From: Fimbriimonadaceae bacterium
GTDB taxonomy: Bacteria > Armatimonadota > UBA10988
Length of the DNA: 64,000 nt
Assembly (NCBI GenBank): GCA_020850355.1
Contig: JADZEX010000081.1
Location: forward strand, 62,001-126,000
Direction of reading: 5' to 3'
Part shown: one piece after another, positions 34,605 to 45,523 of the stretch
Layout of the letters: every line of letters begins with the position of its first letter
Numbering within the stretch: position 1 is the stretch's first letter
Position numbers and translations under genes: made by a program
The notes under the pieces: model-generated
What the model saw: the letters and a program-made list of their open reading frames with translations, nothing else
What the model was told of the DNA's origin: nothing
Database searches by the model: none

Positions 34605-35060
34605 ATGACGGTCGACGAGGCATTGGCGGCCTGGCTCGCGGCGGGCAGCGGTCCGGCGACGTTGGTGGGCAGTTGGTCGCAGACCGAGCAGGCCGCGGCG
34701 GCGCTCAGCGCGGCAGGCGTGGCGGTGCGGTCTGCGAACCACGAACTCCTGGCGCGGCTGGGCCCGGGCGATCACCGCCTGGCGCAGCAGCGGGCGCTGC
34801 GCGAGGCCTATGAACAGTGGCTGGCGGAGCTGGCGACGGAGCCAGGCCCGCTGGCGATTGGACGGTTTGAGCTGCTGGTTGCCGAACACCTCGACTTGAC
34901 CCGCTTGGCCGACCTCCGGCGGCCGGTCCTGCTGCTGGCCCCGGGCCGGCTCGACGGCCGCGCGGTGCGGCTGTACGCCACGCCCGAGGAGCTGGGCTGG
35001 CCGTGGCCGCCGGCCCTGGCGCCACGCGAGCGCTGCTGGCAGTTGGAGTCGGCCGCATGA
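34605..35060 (+). CDS. BrxF-like small protein lacking the P-loop
   Basis: A 151-residue soluble protein. By eye it follows the layout of the BREX type 3 protein BrxF: a first strand, an N-x-EL stretch (here SANHELLARLGP), a helical middle, an ELL strand (AIGRFELLVAEHLDL), then LADLRRPVLLLAPGRL and a Y-A-x-P-E-E end. Where BrxF has a Walker A, this protein reads LVGSWSQTEQ (residues 20-29), so ATP binding is unlikely. It overlaps the PglZ-like gene by ATGA, matching the BREX association of the two families. The start is ATG 34605 (a GTG is one codon upstream). Family call is moderate. Confidence 0.55.
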   Translation: MTVDEALAAWLAAGSGPATLVGSWSQTEQAAAALSAAGVAVRSANHELLARLGPGDHRLAQQRALREAYEQWLAELATEPGPLAIGRFELLVAEHLDLTRLADLRRPVLLLAPGRLDGRAVRLYATPEELGWPWPPALAPRERCWQLESAA

Positions 35061-37609
35061 CTCCGACCAGCGTCACCGTGGCCCAACTGCAGACCTGGCC
35101 AGCGCCCTGCGCCGTGCTCGCCGATCCGCGCGGCCTGCTCGCTCTGCCGAGTTGCGTCGACCTCGGCGGTCACCCGGCAACGGTCCTGCTGGCGACCGAC
35201 AACGTCACCTTCCGCCAGCTCTATGAGCCGCTCCGCGACAGCCAGGGGGCGGTCGTGGTGGTTCGCCGGCGGGCAGATCTGGTGCTGCCGGACCTGCTCC
35301 ACCGAGCCGGCGGCGAAGTCGCCGTCACACCGCGGGTGATCCTGGCCTGGGCCACCGGCGAGGTGGTCTGGCCGGCCTGGCTGGACGCGGCCGAAGAGCT
35401 GCTGGCCGAGCACCTGGGAGCTATCGCGCAGGCCACCCGGCAGGTGCGGCGGGCGGGCCGCATTTGGAGCGAGGCGCTGGCCGACGAGGTCGTCTTGCGG
35501 GCCGTGGCAGGGTTCGACCTGAGTTCTCCCCACCTCGACCCGGCGGCCGCCTGGCAGGCGCTGGCCGCGCGGGAACGGCTGTGGCGCAAACTGGCGAAGC
35601 GCGGGACGCCGCTGGCCGGCCGCCTGCAGGCCTGGCTGCGCCGCCAACCGCCGCCGCTCGGCTGGCTAGATCTGGCGGACCCCGACCTGGCCGTGCGGCT
35701 AACCTGGATTGTCGCCCTGTTGCTGCCGCACCGGCCCGACCTGGCGGCCTGGCTGCCGCGCGGCTACCCGCCGGCGGCCGCCTTTGGCGAACACGACCTG
35801 ACCGCCGTGGCGCGGGTCGCCTACCGCCTGCAGCGTCTGGCTCCGGAGTTGGCGGCGGCCCAGCGCGACACCGCTGAGCTGGCCTTCCATGGCGCTCTGC
35901 GCGGGCCGCTGGTCGAGTTGCTGCGCCTCGCCGAGCCGGCCGCCGCGGCGGCGGTGGTGCGGCGCGAGACGCGCTCCGGGCACCTGGCGTTGCTGGCGCT
36001 GCGGACCCTGCTCGGTGCCATCGCGCTCGACGAGGTGCCCCACGAGCTGGCCCTGGAACCGCTGCTCGACCAGCTCCTGGAGCGGGTCGAGCGGCTTTCG
36101 CAGGGGGCGGCCGTGCGGGCCCACGCCGAGCTGCTGCGGGCGCTGCTGCGCCTCGACCGGCTGCGGCCGCGGCTGCAGGCCTGGTCGCAGGCCGCGCCCG
36201 CCGAGTTGCCGGCCGAGGCACTGGCTCTGGCGGCTGGCGAAGGGGCGCAGCTGGAGAGCGACCTGGCGGCCGCCCACGATGCTCTGGAAGACAACGCGCT
36301 GCACGAGACGCAGTGGAACCTGCAGGCCGATCCGGCTCGCCACAAGGCCGTGCTGGCCGCCTGGCAGGCGCACCTCGGCGCGGCTGAGCAGGCGCTGGTG
36401 AGCGCCGAGCGGGAGCTGGGCGCGGCCCTGCTGGCGCAGCCGCCGGCTCCGGCGCAGGCGGCCGCGGCGGCCTGGGATGAGTTGCTGACGGCCCGTTGGC
36501 GGGACGAGGGCGACCCGCCCCGGACGCTGGTGCTGGTCGCCGGGCTGAGCTGGGCGGCCTGGTCGGGTCGCCTGGCGCCACGCCTGGCGGGGGTCTACGA
36601 CAGCTTCGCCGAGCCGCTCTGGGCACCGCTGCCGAGCGCCGGGGAGTGGTCGCTGCCGCGGGCGGTGGGCGGCCTGCGCTGGCAGAGCGCCAGTGCGACG
36701 TGGGATGTGGACGAGCTGCTGGGCCGGCTGCGGCCCGAACTCGGCCTGCGGCGGCGCGCGCTGCCAGCGGCCTGGCGCCCGCTGGGCGCAGCCGGTCTGG
36801 TGCGCGGGAGTTGGACCGGCGGTGAGCTGCGGCTGCTGCTGGTCGACCTGTTGGCCGCGGCGCCAGGCGGGCTACCGGCAGAGGCCTATCACGACCGCCT
36901 GGCGGCTCTCGCCGCGGCGCTGGTGACCCAGGCCAGCGGCCGGCAGCGCGACCGGCGGGTGACCCTCTTGGCCTGTTCGGGCGCGGTCCTCTGCCGGCCC
37001 CGCCCGGGGCTGGCGCTGGCTGGCCAGCCCGTCGGCGCGCGGGCCGTGCGGCCCAGCGACGAACCGCCGCCGGTCGAGGCACTGGGCCTGGCGGCGGATC
37101 AACTGGGCCTGCCGGGCCCGGCGCCAGTGCTGCTGGCCTACGGCCGCGGCCGGCTGGTGCCTGCCACCGACCAGGCCGCTTACGCCGCGGGCGGGCTGTC
37201 CTTGGCCGAGCTGGCGGTGCCCTTGGCGCAGCTTACGCCGGTGCCCCGGGGCGAGCGGGCGGTGGTCCGGCTGGACCGCTGGCTGGTGCCCGAACGGGTG
37301 GTCGCGGGGCAGCCGGTCGAGCTGGCGGTGGATGTCACGCTGGTCGCTGGGGCGCTGGCCGACCTGGCGCGGTTGACGGCGGAACTGCCAGACTGCCCGG
37401 TGGGCGAGGCCGTGCTCGACCGCGGTGAGCGGCAGCGGCTGACGTTGGTCTGGACCCCGCAGTTGCCGGCTGGGGCCCGGCGGGCGGAGCAGACCGTGAC
37501 CTTGACCCTGCAGGTCGGCCGGCGCCGGCAGGTGCGGCGCGTCGTCGTCACGGTGGTCGCCGCGACGCCGCAGCCGGCGGCGGTGGCCGTGCCGTTGGAA
37601 GGGGGCTAA
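35057..37609 (+). CDS. PglZ-like pseudo-phosphatase
   Basis: An 850-residue soluble protein. The N-terminal 480 residues are helical and Leu/Ala/Arg-rich. Residues about 485-725 follow the PglZ (alkaline phosphatase superfamily) order: the first strand VLVAGLSWAAW where active members have an Asp at A495; LPSAGEWSLP (525-534) where the nucleophile Thr is expected; a kept Asp in LLLVDLLAA; LLACSGAVL where DHG is expected (C640, S641); and AAGGLSLAEL where HGG is expected (A711). Most metal ligands are lost while the fold motifs remain. A beta-sandwich domain ends the protein (about 740-840). It is coupled to the BrxF-like gene (4-bp overlap) and the kinase gene (1-bp gap). Confidence 0.65.
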   Translation: MTPTSVTVAQLQTWPAPCAVLADPRGLLALPSCVDLGGHPATVLLATDNVTFRQLYEPLRDSQGAVVVVRRRADLVLPDLLHRAGGEVAVTPRVILAWATGEVVWPAWLDAAEELLAEHLGAIAQATRQVRRAGRIWSEALADEVVLRAVAGFDLSSPHLDPAAAWQALAARERLWRKLAKRGTPLAGRLQAWLRRQPPPLGWLDLADPDLAVRLTWIVALLLPHRPDLAAWLPRGYPPAAAFGEHDLTAVARVAYRLQRLAPELAAAQRDTAELAFHGALRGPLVELLRLAEPAAAAAVVRRETRSGHLALLALRTLLGAIALDEVPHELALEPLLDQLLERVERLSQGAAVRAHAELLRALLRLDRLRPRLQAWSQAAPAELPAEALALAAGEGAQLESDLAAAHDALEDNALHETQWNLQADPARHKAVLAAWQAHLGAAEQALVSAERELGAALLAQPPAPAQAAAAAWDELLTARWRDEGDPPRTLVLVAGLSWAAWSGRLAPRLAGVYDSFAEPLWAPLPSAGEWSLPRAVGGLRWQSASATWDVDELLGRLRPELGLRRRALPAAWRPLGAAGLVRGSWTGGELRLLLVDLLAAAPGGLPAEAYHDRLAALAAALVTQASGRQRDRRVTLLACSGAVLCRPRPGLALAGQPVGARAVRPSDEPPPVEALGLAADQLGLPGPAPVLLAYGRGRLVPATDQAAYAAGGLSLAELAVPLAQLTPVPRGERAVVRLDRWLVPERVVAGQPVELAVDVTLVAGALADLARLTAELPDCPVGEAVLDRGERQRLTLVWTPQLPAGARRAEQTVTLTLQVGRRRQVRRVVVTVVAATPQPAAVAVPLEGG

Positions 37610-37610
37610 G

Positions 37611-39749
37611 GTGGCCAGGGCCAAACACCGGCGGATGGCACAGGGCGAGTGGATCGCGGCGCTACGGCGGCTCGCCGGTCTGGTGCATCGGGCGGGCGAG
37701 CTGCCGGGCTTCTCGAAGGCGCTCAACGAGTACCTCTGCGAGACCTTCGAGGCGGGCGCCGCGTCGCTGGTGCTGGTCGACCCGCAGACCAGCGAGTTGG
37801 TCTTCCACACCGCCAGCGGGGTGCCCAGCACCGTGCTCAACCAGGCCCGGCTGCACCGTGGCGAGGGCCTCGCCGGCTGGGTCTGCCAGCACCACGAGCT
37901 GCTCAACATCGTCGACGCCCGCGCCGACCAGCGGTTCTGTGACCGGGTCGACCAGACCACCGGCTTCTTCACCCGCGCCGTGCTCTGCGCGCCGCTCTAC
38001 CGCGCCGGGCAGGTCGAGGGCGCCATTGAGGTCCTGAATCCCCTTGACGGCGGCACTTTCAGTGCGGCCCAGGGCGAGCTGCTGGAGGTGATCGCCGAGC
38101 AGGTCGAGTTGCTGGTCTCCAACGCGCAGTTGATCGAGGGCCTGCAGCGGCGCAATGCCGAGCTGACCACGCTGATCGACATCGACCGCGCGGTCAACGC
38201 CGAGCACGACCTGGAACGGCTGCTGGGCACGATCCTGGGCAGCGCCGCCGAGGTCGCGCAGGCGGCCGGCTCGTCGGTGGTGTTGTGCGACGAGGTCGGC
38301 GATGGGCTGACCTTCTTCCACGCGGTCGGCCCGGCCAAGGACCAGTTGGTGGGCGTCCGGATGCGGGCTGGCCAGGGCATCGTCGGCCAATGTGTCGCCA
38401 CCGGCGAGTCGATCCACGTGCCCGACGCCTACAGCGACAGCCGGTTCTTCAAGCAGATGGATGCCAAGACCGGCTTCCACACCACCTCGTTGATCGCGGT
38501 CCCGCTGCGCGCCGCGGCCGGCATCATCGGCGCGTTGGAGGTGGTCAACCTGCAACGCAGCGAGGAGCCGGATCTGGTGCGGCTGATGGAGGCTTTCGCC
38601 AGCCAGGCGGCCGTGGCCATCGAGCGGGCGCAGCTTTACCAGCGCCTGGAGCGCCGGGTCGACGCGGCCGATGCGCAGTTGCGGGCGACCAACCTCTCGT
38701 TGGAGGCCGAGCGCGCCAAGCTGCGGGCGATGATCGAGCAGATGGCCGACGGCGTGATCATGGTCGACGGCGACGGTCGCGTGCTGCTGGTCAACGAAGC
38801 GGCCCGCGCGATGTTCACGCTCGGCACGCAACGGCTGGAGGGCCTGCCGGCGCTGGAGATCGAAAACGTCAGCCTGGCGGCGACGCTGGCGGTTGGCGAT
38901 ACCGACCCGGCCGGGCTGGAGATCGCCATCGACCAGCCGCGCGCTCGCACGCTGCGGGTGCACGCGGCGACGGTCGCCGCGGCCGAGGGCAAGGTCGGCA
39001 AGGTGGTGGTCTGCGCCGACATCACCGAGCTCAAGGAGCTGGCTGCGATTCGGACCGAGCTGGTGAGCTTCGTGTCGCACGAGCTGCGCACGCCGTTGAC
39101 CAGCATCAAGGGCTTCCTGTCGGCGATGCTGAGCGACGCGCGGCTGAAGGAAGACGACCACCGCACCTTCATCCGGATCATCGACCATGAGTGCGACCGG
39201 CTGCGCCGGATGGTCGCCGACCTGCTGTGCATGACCCGGATCGACTCCGGCCGCGTGCTGGAGGTGCGTTGGACGCGGTTGGACCTGCTGCAGGCCGTGC
39301 AGCACGTCGTCGAGGCGCAGAAGGTCTACTCGCCCGAGCACACCATGGTGATCGACGCCGCGCCAGGTGAGTGGCTGGTCGAAGCCGACCTCGACAAGAT
39401 CGAGCAGATTCTCACCAACCTGCTCAACAACGCCATGAAGTACTCGCCGCGCGGCACCACCGTGACGATCCGGCTGCGCCGCGACGGCGAGTTGGTGGTG
39501 TTGCGGGTTGAGGACTGCGGCTACGGGATCGCGCCCGAGGACATTCCGCATCTCTTCCAGCAGTACGGCCGCCTGCAAGACGCTCAGGCGCGGCGCATTC
39601 CGGGCACCGGGCTGGGGCTCTACCTCGTGAAGCACCTGGTCGAAGCCCACGGCGGCCGGATCACCGTCGAGAGCGAGCTTGGCAAGGGCTCGGCGTTCAC
39701 GCTGACCTGGCCAGCCCGCCGGCCCTGGGGCGACGGCGTCGACGCGTAG
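37611..39749 (+). CDS. Soluble GAF-GAF-PAS sensor histidine kinase
   Basis: A 712-residue cytoplasmic kinase without membrane helices. GAF 1 (about 25-165, with GEGLAGWV) and GAF 2 (about 190-340, with GQGIVGQCVATGE) are followed by a coiled linker, a PAS domain (about 370-470, MADGVIMVDGDGRVLLVNEA), HisKA with H490 in FVSHELRTPLTSIKGF, and HATPase_c with NLLNNAMKYS, EDCGYGIAP and GTGLGLYL. All kinase motifs are intact. The start is GTG 37611, one base after the PglZ-like stop, with GGGGG in front. No response regulator is adjacent. GAF ligands are unknown. Confidence 0.92.
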   Translation: MARAKHRRMAQGEWIAALRRLAGLVHRAGELPGFSKALNEYLCETFEAGAASLVLVDPQTSELVFHTASGVPSTVLNQARLHRGEGLAGWVCQHHELLNIVDARADQRFCDRVDQTTGFFTRAVLCAPLYRAGQVEGAIEVLNPLDGGTFSAAQGELLEVIAEQVELLVSNAQLIEGLQRRNAELTTLIDIDRAVNAEHDLERLLGTILGSAAEVAQAAGSSVVLCDEVGDGLTFFHAVGPAKDQLVGVRMRAGQGIVGQCVATGESIHVPDAYSDSRFFKQMDAKTGFHTTSLIAVPLRAAAGIIGALEVVNLQRSEEPDLVRLMEAFASQAAVAIERAQLYQRLERRVDAADAQLRATNLSLEAERAKLRAMIEQMADGVIMVDGDGRVLLVNEAARAMFTLGTQRLEGLPALEIENVSLAATLAVGDTDPAGLEIAIDQPRARTLRVHAATVAAAEGKVGKVVVCADITELKELAAIRTELVSFVSHELRTPLTSIKGFLSAMLSDARLKEDDHRTFIRIIDHECDRLRRMVADLLCMTRIDSGRVLEVRWTRLDLLQAVQHVVEAQKVYSPEHTMVIDAAPGEWLVEADLDKIEQILTNLLNNAMKYSPRGTTVTIRLRRDGELVVLRVEDCGYGIAPEDIPHLFQQYGRLQDAQARRIPGTGLGLYLVKHLVEAHGGRITVESELGKGSAFTLTWPARRPWGDGVDA

Positions 39750-39948: not shown

Positions 39949-42033
39949 GTGAGCGCTGTGGTGGCCAGCAACAATCAGGGCGGGGGTGGGCTCCGCGGGT
40001 TGTTGGGCCGCACCGAGCTCTGGATGGCCGGCGCCAGCATCGCCCTGGTGGTGATGCTGATCCTGCCGCTCCCGACGGCGGTGATCGACCTGCTGCTGGT
40101 CTTCAACCTGGCGCTCAGCCTGTCGGTGCTGTTGGCGACCACTTACCTGCAGGACCCCCTCGAGCTGAGCAGCTTCCCCTCCCTGCTGCTATTCATGGCG
40201 CTCTACCGCCTGGCGCTGAGCATCTCGGTGATGCGCGCCATTCTCGGCGGCGCCGACGCCGGGTCGGTGGTGGCCAGCTTCGGAAACCTGGTGCTGGCTG
40301 GCAACTACATCATCGGCTTCGTGCTCTTCCTGACGCTGCTGATTGTGCAGTTTGTGGTGGTGATCGGCGGCACCAGCCGGATCGCCGACGTGGTCGCGCG
40401 GTTCACCCTGGACGCGATGCCCGGCAAGCAGATGGCCATCGACGCCGACCTCAACGCCGGGATGATCACCGAAGAAGTGGCCCGCCAGCGCCGCAAGAAG
40501 GTCTCCGCCGAGAGCGACTTCTACGGCGCGATGGACGGTGCCAGCAAGTTTGTCAAAGGCGACGGCCTGGCCTCGCTGATGACCACCGCCATCAACCTGC
40601 TGGGCGGCATCCTGGTCGGCGTGGTGCAGCACGGTCTGGACGTCCGCACCTCGCTCGAAACCTACGCCCTGCTGACCGTCGGTCAGGGCCTGGTGATCCA
40701 AATCCCCGGCCTGCTGATGAGCGCGGCCTCCGGTCTGATTGTGACCCGCGCCGCCAGTGAAGAGAATCTCTCGCACGACCTGGTGAAGCAGCTCACCGCT
40801 CGCCCCGACACGCTGAAGGCCGCGGCGATGGGCTGCTTCCTGCTGGGCGTCGTCCCCGGTCTGCCGAAGCTGCCGCTGCTGGCGCTGGGTCTGGCGCTGA
40901 TGCTGGCGGCCCGCTACGCGCTGCAGTTGCAGGCCGAGCCCGAAGCCGAGGCGACCCCCGAGGCCGAGGCCTCGCCCGACCAGGCCGGCGACATGCGGCA
41001 GCATCTGCCGCTCGACACGCTCTGCCTGGAAGTCGGCTACGGCCTCGTGCCGCTCGCCCTGAAAAGCGAGGGCGGGCTGCTGCTGGAGCGGATCACCGGC
41101 CTGCGCAAGGCGGTCGCGCAAGAGCTGGGGCTGGTGGTGCCGCCCATCCGGGTGCGCGACAACCTGACCATCAACGCCAACGGGTACCTGCTGAAGCTGC
41201 GCGGAGTGGTGATCGCCGAAGGGCAGATCCTGCCGCGCTTCTTCCTGGCCCTCAACGGCGGCGGCGTCCGCAAGCCGCTGGACGGCGAGCACGTTGCTGA
41301 CCCGACCTTCGGGTTGCCGGCGACCTGGGTCTCGCCCGACCAGCGCGGCGAGGCCGAGCGGCGGGGCTACATCGTGATCGACGCTGCCTCGGTCTGCATC
41401 ACGCACCTCGGCGAGGCAGTTCGCCAGCACGCCGCGGCGTTGCTGACGAGGCAAGAGCTGGCCGAGCTGATCGAGGTCGTCAAGGCCGAGAACCCGGCGG
41501 TGGTCAACGATCTGGTGCCCGAGGTGGTCAGCAAGGCGACGCTGCAGGCGGTGCTGCAGAACCTGCTCGAAGAGCGCGTCCCGATCCGTGACCTGGTGAC
41601 CATCTTGGAGGCCCTCGGCGAGGCCAGTCTGCGGACCAACAACCTCGACGAGATGACCGAGCACGTGCGCTGCAAGCTGGCGCGGGTGGTGCTCGGTCCG
41701 CTGCTGGCGGCGGGCGAACTGCCGGCCCTGCAGCTTGACCCGATGCTGGAGCGACGGCTCGCCGACGGGATTGGCGAAACAGCCTTCGGCGCGCAGTTGC
41801 AGATCCCGCCCGATTTGCTCCGCGAGTTTGTCAACACTCTCAGCGACCGCCTCGAACAGGCTGCCGCCGAGGGGTACCAGCCGGTGCTGGCCTGCTCCCG
41901 CCGCCTGCGCCTGCCGCTGCGGCGGATGATGAAGAAGCTGCTCAGTCGCCTGATCGTCGTGTCGTACGATGAGGTTGCCGAGACCGCGGCGCGGCTGAAG
42001 CAGATCGGCACGGTCACGGTGAGCAGCGTATGA
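39949..42033 (+). CDS. flhA: Flagellar export apparatus protein FlhA
   Basis: A 694-residue core membrane component of the flagellar type III export gate. The N-terminal half has about eight membrane helices and the conserved cytoplasmic loop segment FVKGDGLASLMTTAINLLGG. The C-terminal half is the cytosolic ring domain that docks chaperone-substrate complexes (RRMMKKLLSRLIVVSYDEV near the end). GTG start 39949 after GGAAGG (10-nt spacing). Between the two halves is an unusual Glu/Ala/Pro-rich linker (EPEAEATPEAEASPDQ). It overlaps flhF by ATGA. Confidence 0.97.
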   Translation: MSAVVASNNQGGGGLRGLLGRTELWMAGASIALVVMLILPLPTAVIDLLLVFNLALSLSVLLATTYLQDPLELSSFPSLLLFMALYRLALSISVMRAILGGADAGSVVASFGNLVLAGNYIIGFVLFLTLLIVQFVVVIGGTSRIADVVARFTLDAMPGKQMAIDADLNAGMITEEVARQRRKKVSAESDFYGAMDGASKFVKGDGLASLMTTAINLLGGILVGVVQHGLDVRTSLETYALLTVGQGLVIQIPGLLMSAASGLIVTRAASEENLSHDLVKQLTARPDTLKAAAMGCFLLGVVPGLPKLPLLALGLALMLAARYALQLQAEPEAEATPEAEASPDQAGDMRQHLPLDTLCLEVGYGLVPLALKSEGGLLLERITGLRKAVAQELGLVVPPIRVRDNLTINANGYLLKLRGVVIAEGQILPRFFLALNGGGVRKPLDGEHVADPTFGLPATWVSPDQRGEAERRGYIVIDAASVCITHLGEAVRQHAAALLTRQELAELIEVVKAENPAVVNDLVPEVVSKATLQAVLQNLLEERVPIRDLVTILEALGEASLRTNNLDEMTEHVRCKLARVVLGPLLAAGELPALQLDPMLERRLADGIGETAFGAQLQIPPDLLREFVNTLSDRLEQAAAEGYQPVLACSRRLRLPLRRMMKKLLSRLIVVSYDEVAETAARLKQIGTVTVSSV

Positions 42034-43430
42034 AGATCAAGCGCTACGAGGGCCAATACGTGCAGGAAGTGATCGCCCAGATCCGCGACGAGATGGGCCC
42101 CGACGCGGTCGTCCTGCACACCCGCTGGCGGAGCCAGAACGGCCTCAAGCGGCTGCTCGGCAAGCCGCAGGTGGAGGTCTGGGCAGGCACCCGTGAGGAG
42201 GTCGCGAAGGCCGATCTGGCGACCCTCACCGCGGCGGCCCGCGCCGAAGCCGAGGGTGAAGTCACCGCTGGAGCGCCGCTGGCGGGCCTGACGCTCGACG
42301 CCGTGGACGACCCGGAGCCGGCCCGGCCGCGGCCGCAACCGGCTGCCCCGCCGGCCGCGGCGCCCCGCCGGCCGCAGCCGCTGCCCGCGCCAGCCGCGGC
42401 GCGCGACGGCGACGACATCGGCGCCCTGGTGGCGGCCTTCGCCGCCTTCAGCAACGGGCAGCTCCGCGAGCCGACCAACGGGCACCTCGCGGCGCCGGCG
42501 CCGGCGCCCGCGCCGGTGGTTGAGTTGCTCCCGGCGCGGACCGAGCCGCAGCCGGCCGAGGAGTTGCCGGAGACCGCCGACGACCTGACGGTGGCCCTGC
42601 TGGCGCAGTTTGGCGACGCCCTGAACCGCATCGAGGAGAAGGTCGACGCGCTCGCTACACCGGCGGCACCGGCGGTCGAGGAGGTCGAGCCGGAGCGGCT
42701 GACCGCGCTCTTGCAGGCCGGGGTCGACCCGCAGGTGGCCCGCGAACTGCACGACGCCGCGGCCGGCGGGTCGGTCGCCGAGGTGCTCTACGACACCTTC
42801 CAGTGCTGCCCGCCGCTGAACTGGTCGCAGGGCTGCCGAGTGGTCGCCCTGGTCGGCCCGAGCGGCGTTGGCAAGACCACCACGGTCGCCAAGCTGGCCG
42901 GCCACTACGGCATCCGCGAAGGGGCCCGCGTGCTGCTGGCTTCGACCGACGTGCAGCGGATTGGCACCTTCGAGCAGATCAAGGCGCTCGGCCAACTGAT
43001 GGAAGTGGCGACGCTCCCGCTGCGGACGCCGGCCGAGGCGCAGGGCAAGCTGGCCACCGCGCGGCGGCAGTACGACCTGGTGCTGGTCGACACGGCGGCT
43101 TGCCAACCGCAGGAGGGCCCGGCCTGGGAGCACCTCCTGGACACCCTGATTGCGGTCGAGCCGGACGAGATCCACGTCGTGGTCTCGGCGGCGATGAAGA
43201 CCAAGGAAGCGGCGCGGGTGGTGGACTACTTCCGCCAGGTGCTGCCGGTCCACGGCGCGGTGGTCACCAAGCTGGACGAGGCCGCCGACCCCGGGCTGGT
43301 GGTGGACCTGGCCTGGCGCTGTCTGGTGCCGCTGTCTTACCTCGGGGTGGGGCACACCATCCCGGGTGACCTGGAGTTGGCGACGCCGGATCGTCTGCTG
43401 GAGATGATCTGGGCGGCGCGTCAGAGCTGA
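42030..43430 (+). CDS. flhF: Flagellar SRP-type GTPase FlhF
   Basis: A 466-residue GTPase that sets flagellar position and number. A short B domain (MKIKRYEGQYVQEVIAQIRD) is followed by a long Ala/Pro-rich linker (about 90-180), the N domain and the G domain with GPSGVGKTTTVAKLAG, STDVQRIGTFEQ, LVDTAACQ (usual DTAG) and TKLDEAADPG. Its usual partner FlhG (MinD-like) is absent here: the next gene is a zinc-finger membrane protein. Confidence 0.93.
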   Translation: MKIKRYEGQYVQEVIAQIRDEMGPDAVVLHTRWRSQNGLKRLLGKPQVEVWAGTREEVAKADLATLTAAARAEAEGEVTAGAPLAGLTLDAVDDPEPARPRPQPAAPPAAAPRRPQPLPAPAAARDGDDIGALVAAFAAFSNGQLREPTNGHLAAPAPAPAPVVELLPARTEPQPAEELPETADDLTVALLAQFGDALNRIEEKVDALATPAAPAVEEVEPERLTALLQAGVDPQVARELHDAAAGGSVAEVLYDTFQCCPPLNWSQGCRVVALVGPSGVGKTTTVAKLAGHYGIREGARVLLASTDVQRIGTFEQIKALGQLMEVATLPLRTPAEAQGKLATARRQYDLVLVDTAACQPQEGPAWEHLLDTLIAVEPDEIHVVVSAAMKTKEAARVVDYFRQVLPVHGAVVTKLDEAADPGLVVDLAWRCLVPLSYLGVGHTIPGDLELATPDRLLEMIWAARQS

Positions 43431-43446
43431 CGGCAGGGAGGGCCCG

Positions 43447-44115
43447 ATGGACCGCGGTCAACCAACACCACGCCCCAACCTCCCGCGGGAGCGCTTGCTG
43501 GCCGAGCTGCAGAAGCGCCGCCAGGCGCCGCCGCCGGTCGCGGCGCCGGCCTTGCCGGCCCCGGCCCCGGAGCCGCGCGGCGGTCGTCCGGCGCCACTGC
43601 GGGTGGGCGACCTCTGCGGCTACACCGACCCGCTGGCGGCCTCGCCGCAGTGCCTGCCGCCGCGGCAGGTCGAGGAGTTTGTGGCGGGGCGGCTGCGCGG
43701 CGCGAAGCAGGCTGCCGTGCGGACGCACCTGCTGCAGTGCCCGCACTGCCGCGGTTACGCCACGGCGCTCCGCGAAGCCGGTGCCCGGCCGTTCCCGACC
43801 GTGGCGCCCAGCGCGCCCTCCAGGCCGGTCTTAGGCACCTCGCACATCCTCGGCCTGACGGTGGCTTTCGTCCTGCTGCTGCTGGCCAACAGCGCCGTGA
43901 TCGACTATCTTGGGACCCTCGACCAGGCCCCGACGGCGGCGGCCACGGTGGCCGCGCCGGTGGCCAATCAGACGGTCCTGGCGCCGCTGCCAGCGGCGCC
44001 GGTGGCGCCGGTCAGCACGCCCAACGTGCCGGCGGTGACCGCGCCTGACCTCACCACGCTGGCCGCCGCGGACCAGCGCACGCCGGCCAGCCCGGTGGCG
44101 GAGGACCTGCGATGA
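43447..44115 (+). CDS. Membrane protein with anti-sigma-type zinc finger, inside the flagellar operon
   Basis: A 222-residue protein. A Pro-rich N-terminal arm (1-50) leads to a zf-HC2-like module: VEEFVAGRLRGAKQAAVRTH followed by LLQCPHCRGY, giving H-x3-C-x2-C. One membrane helix (about 133-155) follows, then an Ala/Pro/Val-rich outer tail. This build is that of anti-sigma factors of the ZAS type. It stands where flhG usually is, two genes before fliA, and overlaps the PilZ gene by ATGA. A role in sensing or holding a sigma factor is inference; FlgM is also encoded in the window. RBS GGGAGGG, 4 nt before ATG. Confidence 0.75.
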   Translation: MDRGQPTPRPNLPRERLLAELQKRRQAPPPVAAPALPAPAPEPRGGRPAPLRVGDLCGYTDPLAASPQCLPPRQVEEFVAGRLRGAKQAAVRTHLLQCPHCRGYATALREAGARPFPTVAPSAPSRPVLGTSHILGLTVAFVLLLLANSAVIDYLGTLDQAPTAAATVAAPVANQTVLAPLPAAPVAPVSTPNVPAVTAPDLTTLAAADQRTPASPVAEDLR

Positions 44116-44756
44116 GGCCGCTGCAGCGGATTAGCCTGGAGGTGGTTGACGAGCAGCCACCGATGCGCTACCCGAGCCGCATTGAGGGCGTCTTCGGCGA
44201 TTACCTGACGCTCGCCGCGCCGCTCCGCCAAGGCGTCCCGGTGCCGCTGCACGACGGCACCAGCCTGCGCGTGACGCTGTTCCACGCCGGCGGCGCCCAC
44301 GGCTTCGAGACGCAGGTGATCGGCCGCGAACCGGGCCGCGTGCCGCTGCTGCGGGTCAGCCGCCCGCGGCGGATGGAAGCGATTCAGCGCCGCCAGTACT
44401 TCCGCGAGCCGGCCGTCGTGCGGACGCTCTGCGGCAACAGCGGCGAGGACGGGCACGAGATCACCGGGGTGACCCGCAATCTGGGCGGCGGTGGGCTGTG
44501 CATTCGCACCAAAGACCTGCGGGCGTTGCACCGGCTGCTCGCCGAACGCAACCGCGACGACCCGTTGTGGGTCGAGATCGGCCTGCCCGACCGGCCGCTG
44601 CGAGCGGTCGTCAACCTGGCCTGGTGCCAGATCGACGACCACGAAACCTCGGCCGACCTGGCCTTCGAGTTTCTGGACCTGCCGAACGCCGAGCGCGAAC
44701 GGCTGATCAAGTACCTGTTCAGTCTGCAGCGCGCCGCGCTACGAAAGGGACTCTGA
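44112..44756 (+). CDS. YcgR-like PilZ protein (c-di-GMP brake)
   Basis: A 214-residue protein. The N-terminal YcgR-type barrel (1-95) ends in the c-di-GMP arm RRMEAIQRRQYFREP, with the RxxxR motif. The PilZ barrel has TRNLGGGGLCI, which fits the second binding motif ([DN]xSxxG, with Gly for Ser). Such proteins slow or steer the flagellar motor when c-di-GMP is high. It overlaps its upstream neighbour by ATGA and fliA by one base (TGATG). Confidence 0.85.
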   Translation: MRPLQRISLEVVDEQPPMRYPSRIEGVFGDYLTLAAPLRQGVPVPLHDGTSLRVTLFHAGGAHGFETQVIGREPGRVPLLRVSRPRRMEAIQRRQYFREPAVVRTLCGNSGEDGHEITGVTRNLGGGGLCIRTKDLRALHRLLAERNRDDPLWVEIGLPDRPLRAVVNLAWCQIDDHETSADLAFEFLDLPNAERERLIKYLFSLQRAALRKGL

Positions 44757-45523
44757 TGCTGCCACCGACGACCCCCAAAGCGGCCCATCTCGAGGATCTC
44801 TGGGAGACCTACCTGACCTACGGGGACCTCAACTCGAAGAGCGCGCTGGTTGAGGAGTACCTCCCGCTGGTGAAGCGGGCGGTCAGCCGCGTGCGGCCGT
44901 TCCTGCCCGACTTCGTGCAGGAAGAGGACCTGATCGGCTACGGCTTCGTCGGCCTGCTCGAGGCGATCGATCGTTTCGAGCGCGACAAGGGCGTGCCCTT
45001 TGAGGCCTATGCCGTGAAGCGCATCCAGGGTTCGATCCTGGACGGCCTGCGGGCGATGAGCTGGCTGCCGCGTAACCTGCACCGCCAGGCGAAGCACGTC
45101 GAGGACACCATCGAGGACCTGCGCAGCCGGCTCGGCCGCCAGCCGACCGAGGACGAGGTCGCCAGCGGGCTGGGGATGTCGGTGACCGACTACCACATGC
45201 TGCTGAGCGATGTCGGGCCGATCACCTTGATGCCGTTCGACGAGATCACCGAGCACGGCGGCATCGACCAGGACTCGCAGCCGTGGGACAAGGTCGAGCG
45301 GGCCGAGCTGCTGGCCGCCGTGGCGCGCTCCATCGAGGACCTGCCGGAGCGCGAGAAACTGGTCGTGACGCTCTACTTCCACCGCGACCTGACGCTCAAG
45401 GAGATCGCCCAGATCCTGGACGTCTCGGAGGGCCGCGCCTGTCAGCTCAAGACGCAGGCCCTGCTGCGGCTGCGGGCGGCGCTCCACCAGCAGGGCTTCG
45501 CGCACCCGGGAGATGCTTCGTGA
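44756..45523 (+). CDS. fliA: Flagellar sigma factor FliA (sigma-28)
   Basis: A 255-residue sigma factor of the FliA/WhiG group. Region 2 is seen in DLIGYGFVGLLEAIDRFER and FEAYAVKRIQGSILDGLRAM; region 3 includes LGRQPTEDEVASGLGM; region 4 includes LPEREKLVVTLYFHRDLTL and IAQILDVSEGRACQLK. It directs late flagellar genes. A matching promoter lies just after the next gene. RBS AAAGGGA. Coupled on both sides (TGATG and GTGA). Confidence 0.95.
   Translation: MLPPTTPKAAHLEDLWETYLTYGDLNSKSALVEEYLPLVKRAVSRVRPFLPDFVQEEDLIGYGFVGLLEAIDRFERDKGVPFEAYAVKRIQGSILDGLRAMSWLPRNLHRQAKHVEDTIEDLRSRLGRQPTEDEVASGLGMSVTDYHMLLSDVGPITLMPFDEITEHGGIDQDSQPWDKVERAELLAAVARSIEDLPEREKLVVTLYFHRDLTLKEIAQILDVSEGRACQLKTQALLRLRAALHQQGFAHPGDAS

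Follow-up and report, generated by a model that had tools for sequence, protein, structure and literature searches.

The closest described relatives of the locus reported here are PglZ, the nuclease of BREX phage defense, and PorX. In BREX type 1, PglZ forms a complex with a small protein, BrxB. In a hybrid model of the BrxB:PglZ complex from Salmonella (PDB 9nv3, where chain C is PglZ), residues 1-98 of PglZ bear the BrxB interface (PMC12205998). Passages of a BREX survey describe a C-terminal beta-sandwich in type 1 PglZ and a type 1 BrxB that lacks Walker motifs; according to the same passages, type 3 PglZ reportedly has no C-terminal domain (PMC12839542). A puzzle of BREX is that PglZ is needed for methylation yet its nuclease activity is dispensable, which raises the question of what PglZ and its small partner do beyond catalysis. 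As for PorX, the two-zinc site of the F. johnsoniae protein is formed by T271, D237, D414, and H415, together with H364, H499, and D360 (PMC10951265).

We analyzed a 64,000-nucleotide stretch of a genome from the phylum Armatimonadota, which we will call the window. An earlier note on its sequence described a BrxF-like protein (gene 1), a PglZ-like protein (gene 2), and a histidine kinase (gene 3), and related them to BREX type 3. Our tentative reading, which we put just short of an even chance, is that the trio is a novel system of Armatimonadota: a BrxB/BrxF:PglZ complex that has lost its nuclease and now acts upon a soluble histidine kinase as its sensor or regulator.

Three translationally coupled genes

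The gene coordinates (Table 1) agree exactly with the earlier note, which had proposed three coupled genes. Gene 1 overlaps gene 2 by 4 bp (ATGA), a gap of 1 bp separates gene 2 from gene 3, and the three genes are translationally coupled. The G+C content of the region is very high, and there are antisense open reading frames of over 500 amino acids, so the length of the reading frames is weak support for the reality of the genes. The three proteins are 34-60% identical to counterparts that are encoded in the same order in two further genera, so these are not chance reading frames. We found no sigma-70-like promoter at the trio, and terminator matches were at chance level, so coupling is the sole basis for the limits of the operon.

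Table 1. Features of the three-gene locus. Positions are those of the window; PorXFj is PorX from F. johnsoniae.
Feature	Position	Strand	Basis
Gene 1, BrxF/BrxB-like (iSTAND-type) protein without Walker A, 151 aa	34605..35060	+	
LVGSWSQTEQ in gene 1, in place of the missing Walker A	34662..34691	+	direct reading
Gene 2, PglZ relative, predicted to be catalytically dead, 850 aa	35057..37609	+	
Gene 2 N-terminal domain, aa 1-110, counterpart of the BrxB-binding domain of PglZ	35057..35386	+	
Gene 2 PglZ/alkaline-phosphatase-like core, aa 485-735	36509..37261	+	
A495, lost Zn1 ligand Asp (PorXFj D237); Ala in all three genera	36539..36541	+	
G529, lost nucleophile Thr (PorXFj T271); Gly/Ala/Ala in the three genera	36641..36643	+	
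A600 and G604, lost Zn2 ligands Asp and His (PorXFj D360, H364); T/A at 600 and A/T at 604 in the other two genera	36854..36868	+	
C640-S641, lost Zn1 ligands Asp-His (PorXFj D414-H415); C/T/T and S/S/S in the three genera	36974..36979	+	
A711, lost Zn2 ligand His of HGG (PorXFj H499); A/D/D in the three genera	37187..37189	+	
Gene 2 C-terminal beta-sandwich (Ig/macroglobulin-like) domain	37262..37561	+	predicted model, Foldseek
Gene 3, soluble GAF-GAF-PAS-HisKA-HATPase_c histidine kinase, 712 aa	37611..39749	+	Pfam

Gene 2 is a relative of PglZ

Genes 1 and 2 had no match among the models of Pfam, PADLOC, PHROGs, or NCBIfam, and searching the PDB sequences with profiles gave no match for either gene. 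For PF08665 specifically, gene 2 had no match over the Pfam or PADLOC cut-off. A three-sequence profile of gene 2 did match a 968-aa PglZ from another Armatimonadota genome, G242 (E = 7.5e-22). The G242 protein is above the Pfam cut-off for PglZ, matches structures of PorX, and has all seven active-site residues.

Profile-profile comparisons with hhalign link gene 2 to PglZ with a probability of 97.7% across the N-terminal 294 columns, and to a set of six PglZ proteins with a probability of 95.5% across 693 columns. Amino acids 470-745 also match PglZ on their own, with a score of 42.8 (null maximum 20.6; 0/40 column shuffles). With the G242 protein (L012) removed from the PglZ set, this region still scored 37.2 (null maximum 21.2; 0/40 shuffles), and amino acids 1-330 scored 40.2 (null maximum 22.0 from 40 column-shuffled controls).

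Gene 2 has an N-terminal domain, a long helical region, the PglZ core, and a C-terminal beta-sandwich. In the predicted structure, the N-terminal, helical, and C-terminal parts are well modeled and the core is modeled poorly (pLDDT under 50 at amino acids 638-743). The top Foldseek match of this model in the PDB was 9nv3_C (E = 2.5e-4, probability 1.00, 598 columns). Seven strands are predicted in the beta-sandwich (amino acids 736-834), and the modeled C-terminal 100 residues matched CARDB, complement, Ig-like, and macroglobulin or macroglobulin-like domains.

Given its homology in sequence and fold, and the domain order of a BREX PglZ, gene 2 is a true PglZ relative. This bears out the earlier note, which had called gene 2 PglZ-like: Foldseek finds the Salmonella PglZ and the profiles agree. 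As for the BREX type 3 frame, the kinship with PglZ stands and the type 3 layout does not, since gene 2 is built like a type 1 PglZ.

The G242 protein (L012:5033-7939, L033) is the nearest relative of gene 2 that bears the active site. It adjoins a Ser/Thr-kinase-like protein (mad6-like in PADLOC), an adenine methylase, and a BrxL-like gene.

The active site of gene 2 is lost

We drew the correspondence between PorX and gene 2 residues through the G242 protein. The window's gene 2 keeps 0/7 of the active-site residues of PorX and PglZ (Table 1). The other two copies of gene 2 also keep none of the seven, apart from an aspartate at one of the histidine positions. The earlier note had reported that most metal ligands were lost; its examples (A495, C640-S641, and A711) hold, and "most" should read as all seven active-site residues. 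The losses beyond its list are the nucleophile threonine (position 529) and the Zn2 ligands at positions 600 and 604.

The gene 2 proteins from the three genera are full-length, and their alignment has hundreds of invariant positions. Because the active-site residues are unconserved in all three genera, with A495 and S641 invariant, their loss predates the split of the genera. Judging from these sequences, gene 2 is a conserved pseudo-enzyme, predicted to be catalytically dead, and not a decaying gene. The earlier note had also argued against decay, and the full-length frames, gene order, and coupling that are kept across the three genera agree with this.

Gene 1 is probably a member of the BrxB/BrxF group

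We compared a profile of gene 1 and three relatives with ten BrxF-type proteins. The hhalign alignments were collinear over 112-114 columns and scored 22-25, with an HH-suite probability of 3-8%. This score was matched by 1/100 column shuffles, and by 0/60 when the comparison was with the seven closer BrxF proteins. Gene 1 did not match the BrxF family model (NF033453). Against BrxB it scored 18, from a match of 12 columns alone; BrxF scored 19 against BrxB. Taken alone, the apparent similarity of gene 1 to BrxF is weak.

The AlphaFold2 model of gene 1 (pLDDT 77, pTM 0.76) has alternating alpha and beta elements with a strand pair after strand 4. Foldseek matched it mostly to P-loop NTPases; an entry for an ORC-Cdc6 complex came first (E = 0.02, probability 0.82), and none had E <= 0.001. 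We conclude that gene 1 is probably a member of the BrxB/BrxF group of "inactive STAND" (iSTAND) proteins.

In the relatives of gene 1, the stretches equivalent to LVGSWSQTEQ also lack the GxxxxGK[ST] motif: they are AVGGWPDLAE in G002, LLTAPERAAM in G001, and LIGEWELLAE in G004. Walker A is also missing from an annotated BREX-3 BrxF on a plasmid of E. faecium (L067:15989-16447) and from a BrxF relative on a plasmid of Klebsiella (L066:529-1041). Since BrxB and these two BrxF-type proteins have no Walker A, its absence is ordinary for the BrxB/BrxF group. The earlier note was right that LVGSWSQTEQ stands in place of a Walker A, and the BrxF layout that it saw is compatible with our results, but the missing P-loop is not a special feature of gene 1. 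The L067 and L066 proteins also make "P-loop-containing protein BrxF" an inaccurate name for the family as a whole.

In genomes of the genus g18 (L013 and L017), PglZ loci also encode a methylase and BrxF-like proteins. These BrxF-like proteins have Walker A and score under the NCBIfam cut-off for BrxF.

Gene 3 is an intact histidine kinase

Gene 3 is the intact soluble histidine kinase that had been described, as judged by its Pfam domains and its H, N, and G boxes. The motifs are intact in all three genera: SHELRTPL (H-box), NLLNNAMKYSP (N-box), GYGI, and GTGLGL. Similar kinases are common among Armatimonadota, and the nearest from beyond the family belongs to G004; it is 40% identical, has the same domains, and does not adjoin genes 1 and 2. 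Given these unlinked kinases, gene 3 probably joined the gene 1-2 pair from a stand-alone family. Between the same genomes, genes 1 and 2 are 34-49% identical and the kinase is 57-60% identical. No response regulator adjoins the trio, and Pfam finds neither a receiver nor an HPt domain in gene 2.

The trio is conserved in three genera of one family

To find relatives of gene 2, we searched 61 related genomes, then 291 genomes across the phylum with a profile, and then a collection of 84,980 species. The related genomes contained two relatives (48% and 44% identity), both from the same family, and neither the phylum-wide profile search nor the scan of the collection turned up further copies. 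A match in G255 (E = 9e-4) was rejected as chance; it lies in a phage-like gene cluster and has an in-frame stop.

In the other two genomes (G001 and G002), gene 1 is directly upstream of gene 2 and the kinase is directly downstream. Gene order is thus identical in 3/3 Armatimonadota genomes with gene 2, which represent three genera, and the spacing consists of overlaps or gaps within 1-3 bp. The earlier note had made its reading depend on whether the trio stays together in relatives from the phylum; it is intact in every genome that has gene 2. So far, the trio is known from just one family, in three of its genera, which is a narrow distribution.

The surrounding genes vary. In the window, a DUF1559 pilin-like protein is encoded upstream of the trio and flhA is downstream; in G002, a MetE-like gene is upstream and guaA is downstream; and in G001, a chemotaxis receptor gene lies further upstream. 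A flagellar cluster (flhA, flhF, a zinc-finger protein, a YcgR/PilZ protein, and a sigma factor; window 39949-45523) starts 200 bp past the kinase. We dropped a link between the trio and these flagellar genes because the neighborhood differs in the other two genera.

Across the three genomes, the ten genes that flank the trio included no defense genes; the sole PADLOC match was weak and was in a two-component kinase. BREX demands BrxC, a PglX-type methylase, and an active PglZ in one locus, and this combination does not occur at the trio: no BREX gene was recognized among the genes flanking any copy, and there are no PF08665 matches above the Pfam cut-off elsewhere in the three genomes. This fits the statement in the earlier note that no other BREX gene is present, as none is recognized beside the trio and the genome has no second PglZ. 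We found no relative of the trio in collections of plasmid and viral sequences.

In a fourth member of the family (G003, 80% complete), gene 1, gene 2, and a close match to the kinase were all absent at the thresholds used. G004, from the same order, has a relative of gene 1 and a gene-3-like kinase on separate contigs, and gene 2 was undetectable. Repeating the search for gene 2 in G003 and G004 at E <= 10 gave no match. The G004 kinase has other genes as its neighbors. The gene 1 relative is at the end of its contig, with the gene downstream of it unassembled, so that copy speaks neither for nor against linkage. No diverged relatives of genes 1 and 2 were found upstream of the gene-3-like kinases in G004, G019, G032, G022, or G008.

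The gene 1 relative from G004 (L054:5342-6100) is larger, lies behind a DEAD-like helicase gene, and has a long insert and no Walker A. In G003, the sibling that lacks the trio, there is a BREX type 1-like locus with BrxA, BrxB, BrxC, PglX, PglZ, and BrxL (L029, L070).

Proposed mechanism and alternatives

We give an even chance to the view that the operon encodes a BREX-derived, nuclease-dead complex that is wired to a two-component kinase. Gene 1, which is iSTAND-like and has no motif for nucleotide hydrolysis, would bind gene 2 at its N-terminal domain, in the manner of BrxB and PglZ. By this analogy, a complex of gene 1 and gene 2 is probable. Gene 2 would retain the PglZ scaffold and the beta-sandwich, leave the two metals unbound, and not attack phosphodiesters. 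It would serve for scaffolding and recognition, the latter through surfaces on its helical and beta-sandwich parts. Regulation would run from the complex to the co-translated kinase, a cytoplasmic GAF-GAF-PAS histidine kinase, or the other way, and the kinase would hand its phosphate to an unlinked response regulator. We infer both the contact of the kinase with genes 1 and 2 and the signaling role. That three genera have kept the trio suggests that defense parts (a dead PglZ and its small partner) were reused as a signaling device.

The main rivals are a defense-type signaling system and a scaffold with no tie to the kinase other than a common operon; a decoy and a decaying locus are less likely. 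In the first, the trio would be a stripped-down phage sensor: the recognition domains of the iSTAND and PglZ proteins detect invaders and the kinase triggers a transcriptional or dormancy response, for a defense without a nuclease. We consider this unlikely. The parts do descend from defense proteins, whose non-catalytic domains are thought to be sensors of invaders, according to passages of the BREX survey (PMC12839542). Also, genes 1 and 2 diverge faster than the kinase, but this may also reflect loose constraint. The ten flanking genes are not defense genes, no copy was found on plasmids or viral contigs, and there is no effector gene.

Under the second rival, which we also consider improbable, the kinase would be just a co-transcribed neighbor, and the BrxB:PglZ-like complex of genes 1 and 2 would play a structural part elsewhere, for instance by scaffolding a methylase or a DNA-binding partner whose gene lies at a different locus. 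Nuclease mutants of type 1 BREX PglZ still support methylation, which implies a structural role for PglZ (PMC12205998), and the kinase of G004 is not on the same contig as the relative of gene 1. However, the kinase is directly behind gene 2 in 3/3 genomes even though the other neighbors have changed, and no BREX gene was found near any copy.

The dead PglZ and the iSTAND protein could instead titrate phage-encoded inhibitors of BREX or sequester incoming BREX subunits. Non-catalytic homologs of defense enzymes can serve as decoys, and the N-terminal (BrxB-binding) domain is among the best conserved parts, but the genomes with the trio have no PglZ-bearing BREX to protect and a kinase in the operon would be unexplained, so we think this very unlikely. 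Least credible of all is that genes 1 and 2 are relics of a decaying BREX locus: the lost active site, rapid divergence, and lack of family-model matches would fit, but three genera retain full-length frames, hundreds of invariant residues (including A495 and S641), and the same gene order and coupling, and third codon positions differ more than first and second positions do, despite saturation at GC3 of ~0.9.

If the trio is indeed a BREX-derived complex wired to a kinase, then it would be a clear case of defense parts turned into signaling parts, in which phage-defense machinery has come to serve as the input module of a two-component system. After PorX, it would be the second case that ties the PglZ fold to histidine kinases. 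A natural nuclease-less version that keeps the partner and the scaffold would isolate the non-catalytic role of PglZ from the rest of BREX.

Comparison with known systems

In the literature that we searched (which excluded preprints and most subscription journals), PglZ and histidine kinases appeared together in work on PorX-bearing bacteria and in one BREX survey alone, and the relevant passages of that survey describe neither such an operon nor an inactive PglZ. The individual parts are familiar; what appears to be new is their combination, along with the dead PglZ.

The trio resembles the BREX type 1 PglZ:BrxB pair of Salmonella (PDB 9nv3; PMC12205998) in that gene 2 matches PglZ over ~600 columns and has its domains in the same order, gene 1 has some likeness to the BrxB/BrxF iSTAND group, and the gene for the small protein adjoins the gene for PglZ. 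Unlike BREX type 1, the trio has lost the active site, has no BrxA, BrxC, PglX, or BrxL, and has a histidine kinase added, and gene 1 scores higher with BrxF than with BrxB.

Gene 1 is like the BrxF of BREX type 3 in its weak collinear profile alignment, its similar length, and its place in a PglZ-containing operon. It differs in having no family-model match and no Walker A, although some BrxF proteins also lack the latter. Also, the PglZ partner of gene 1 has a type 1 layout, and no BREX-3 genes are present. The BREX-related type 3 systems, as described in passages of the survey (PMC12839542), likewise recruit separate PglZ and iSTAND genes outside canonical BREX, but their PglZ is active and is accompanied by a DUF499 ATPase, a methylase, and a helicase, none of which the trio has.

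PorXY of the Bacteroidetes is the only well-known link between the PglZ fold and histidine-kinase signaling. PorX combines a receiver domain with an active two-zinc phosphodiesterase, and gene 2 has neither. Furthermore, the porX and porY genes are not adjacent, whereas gene 2 adjoins the gene for its putative kinase partner.
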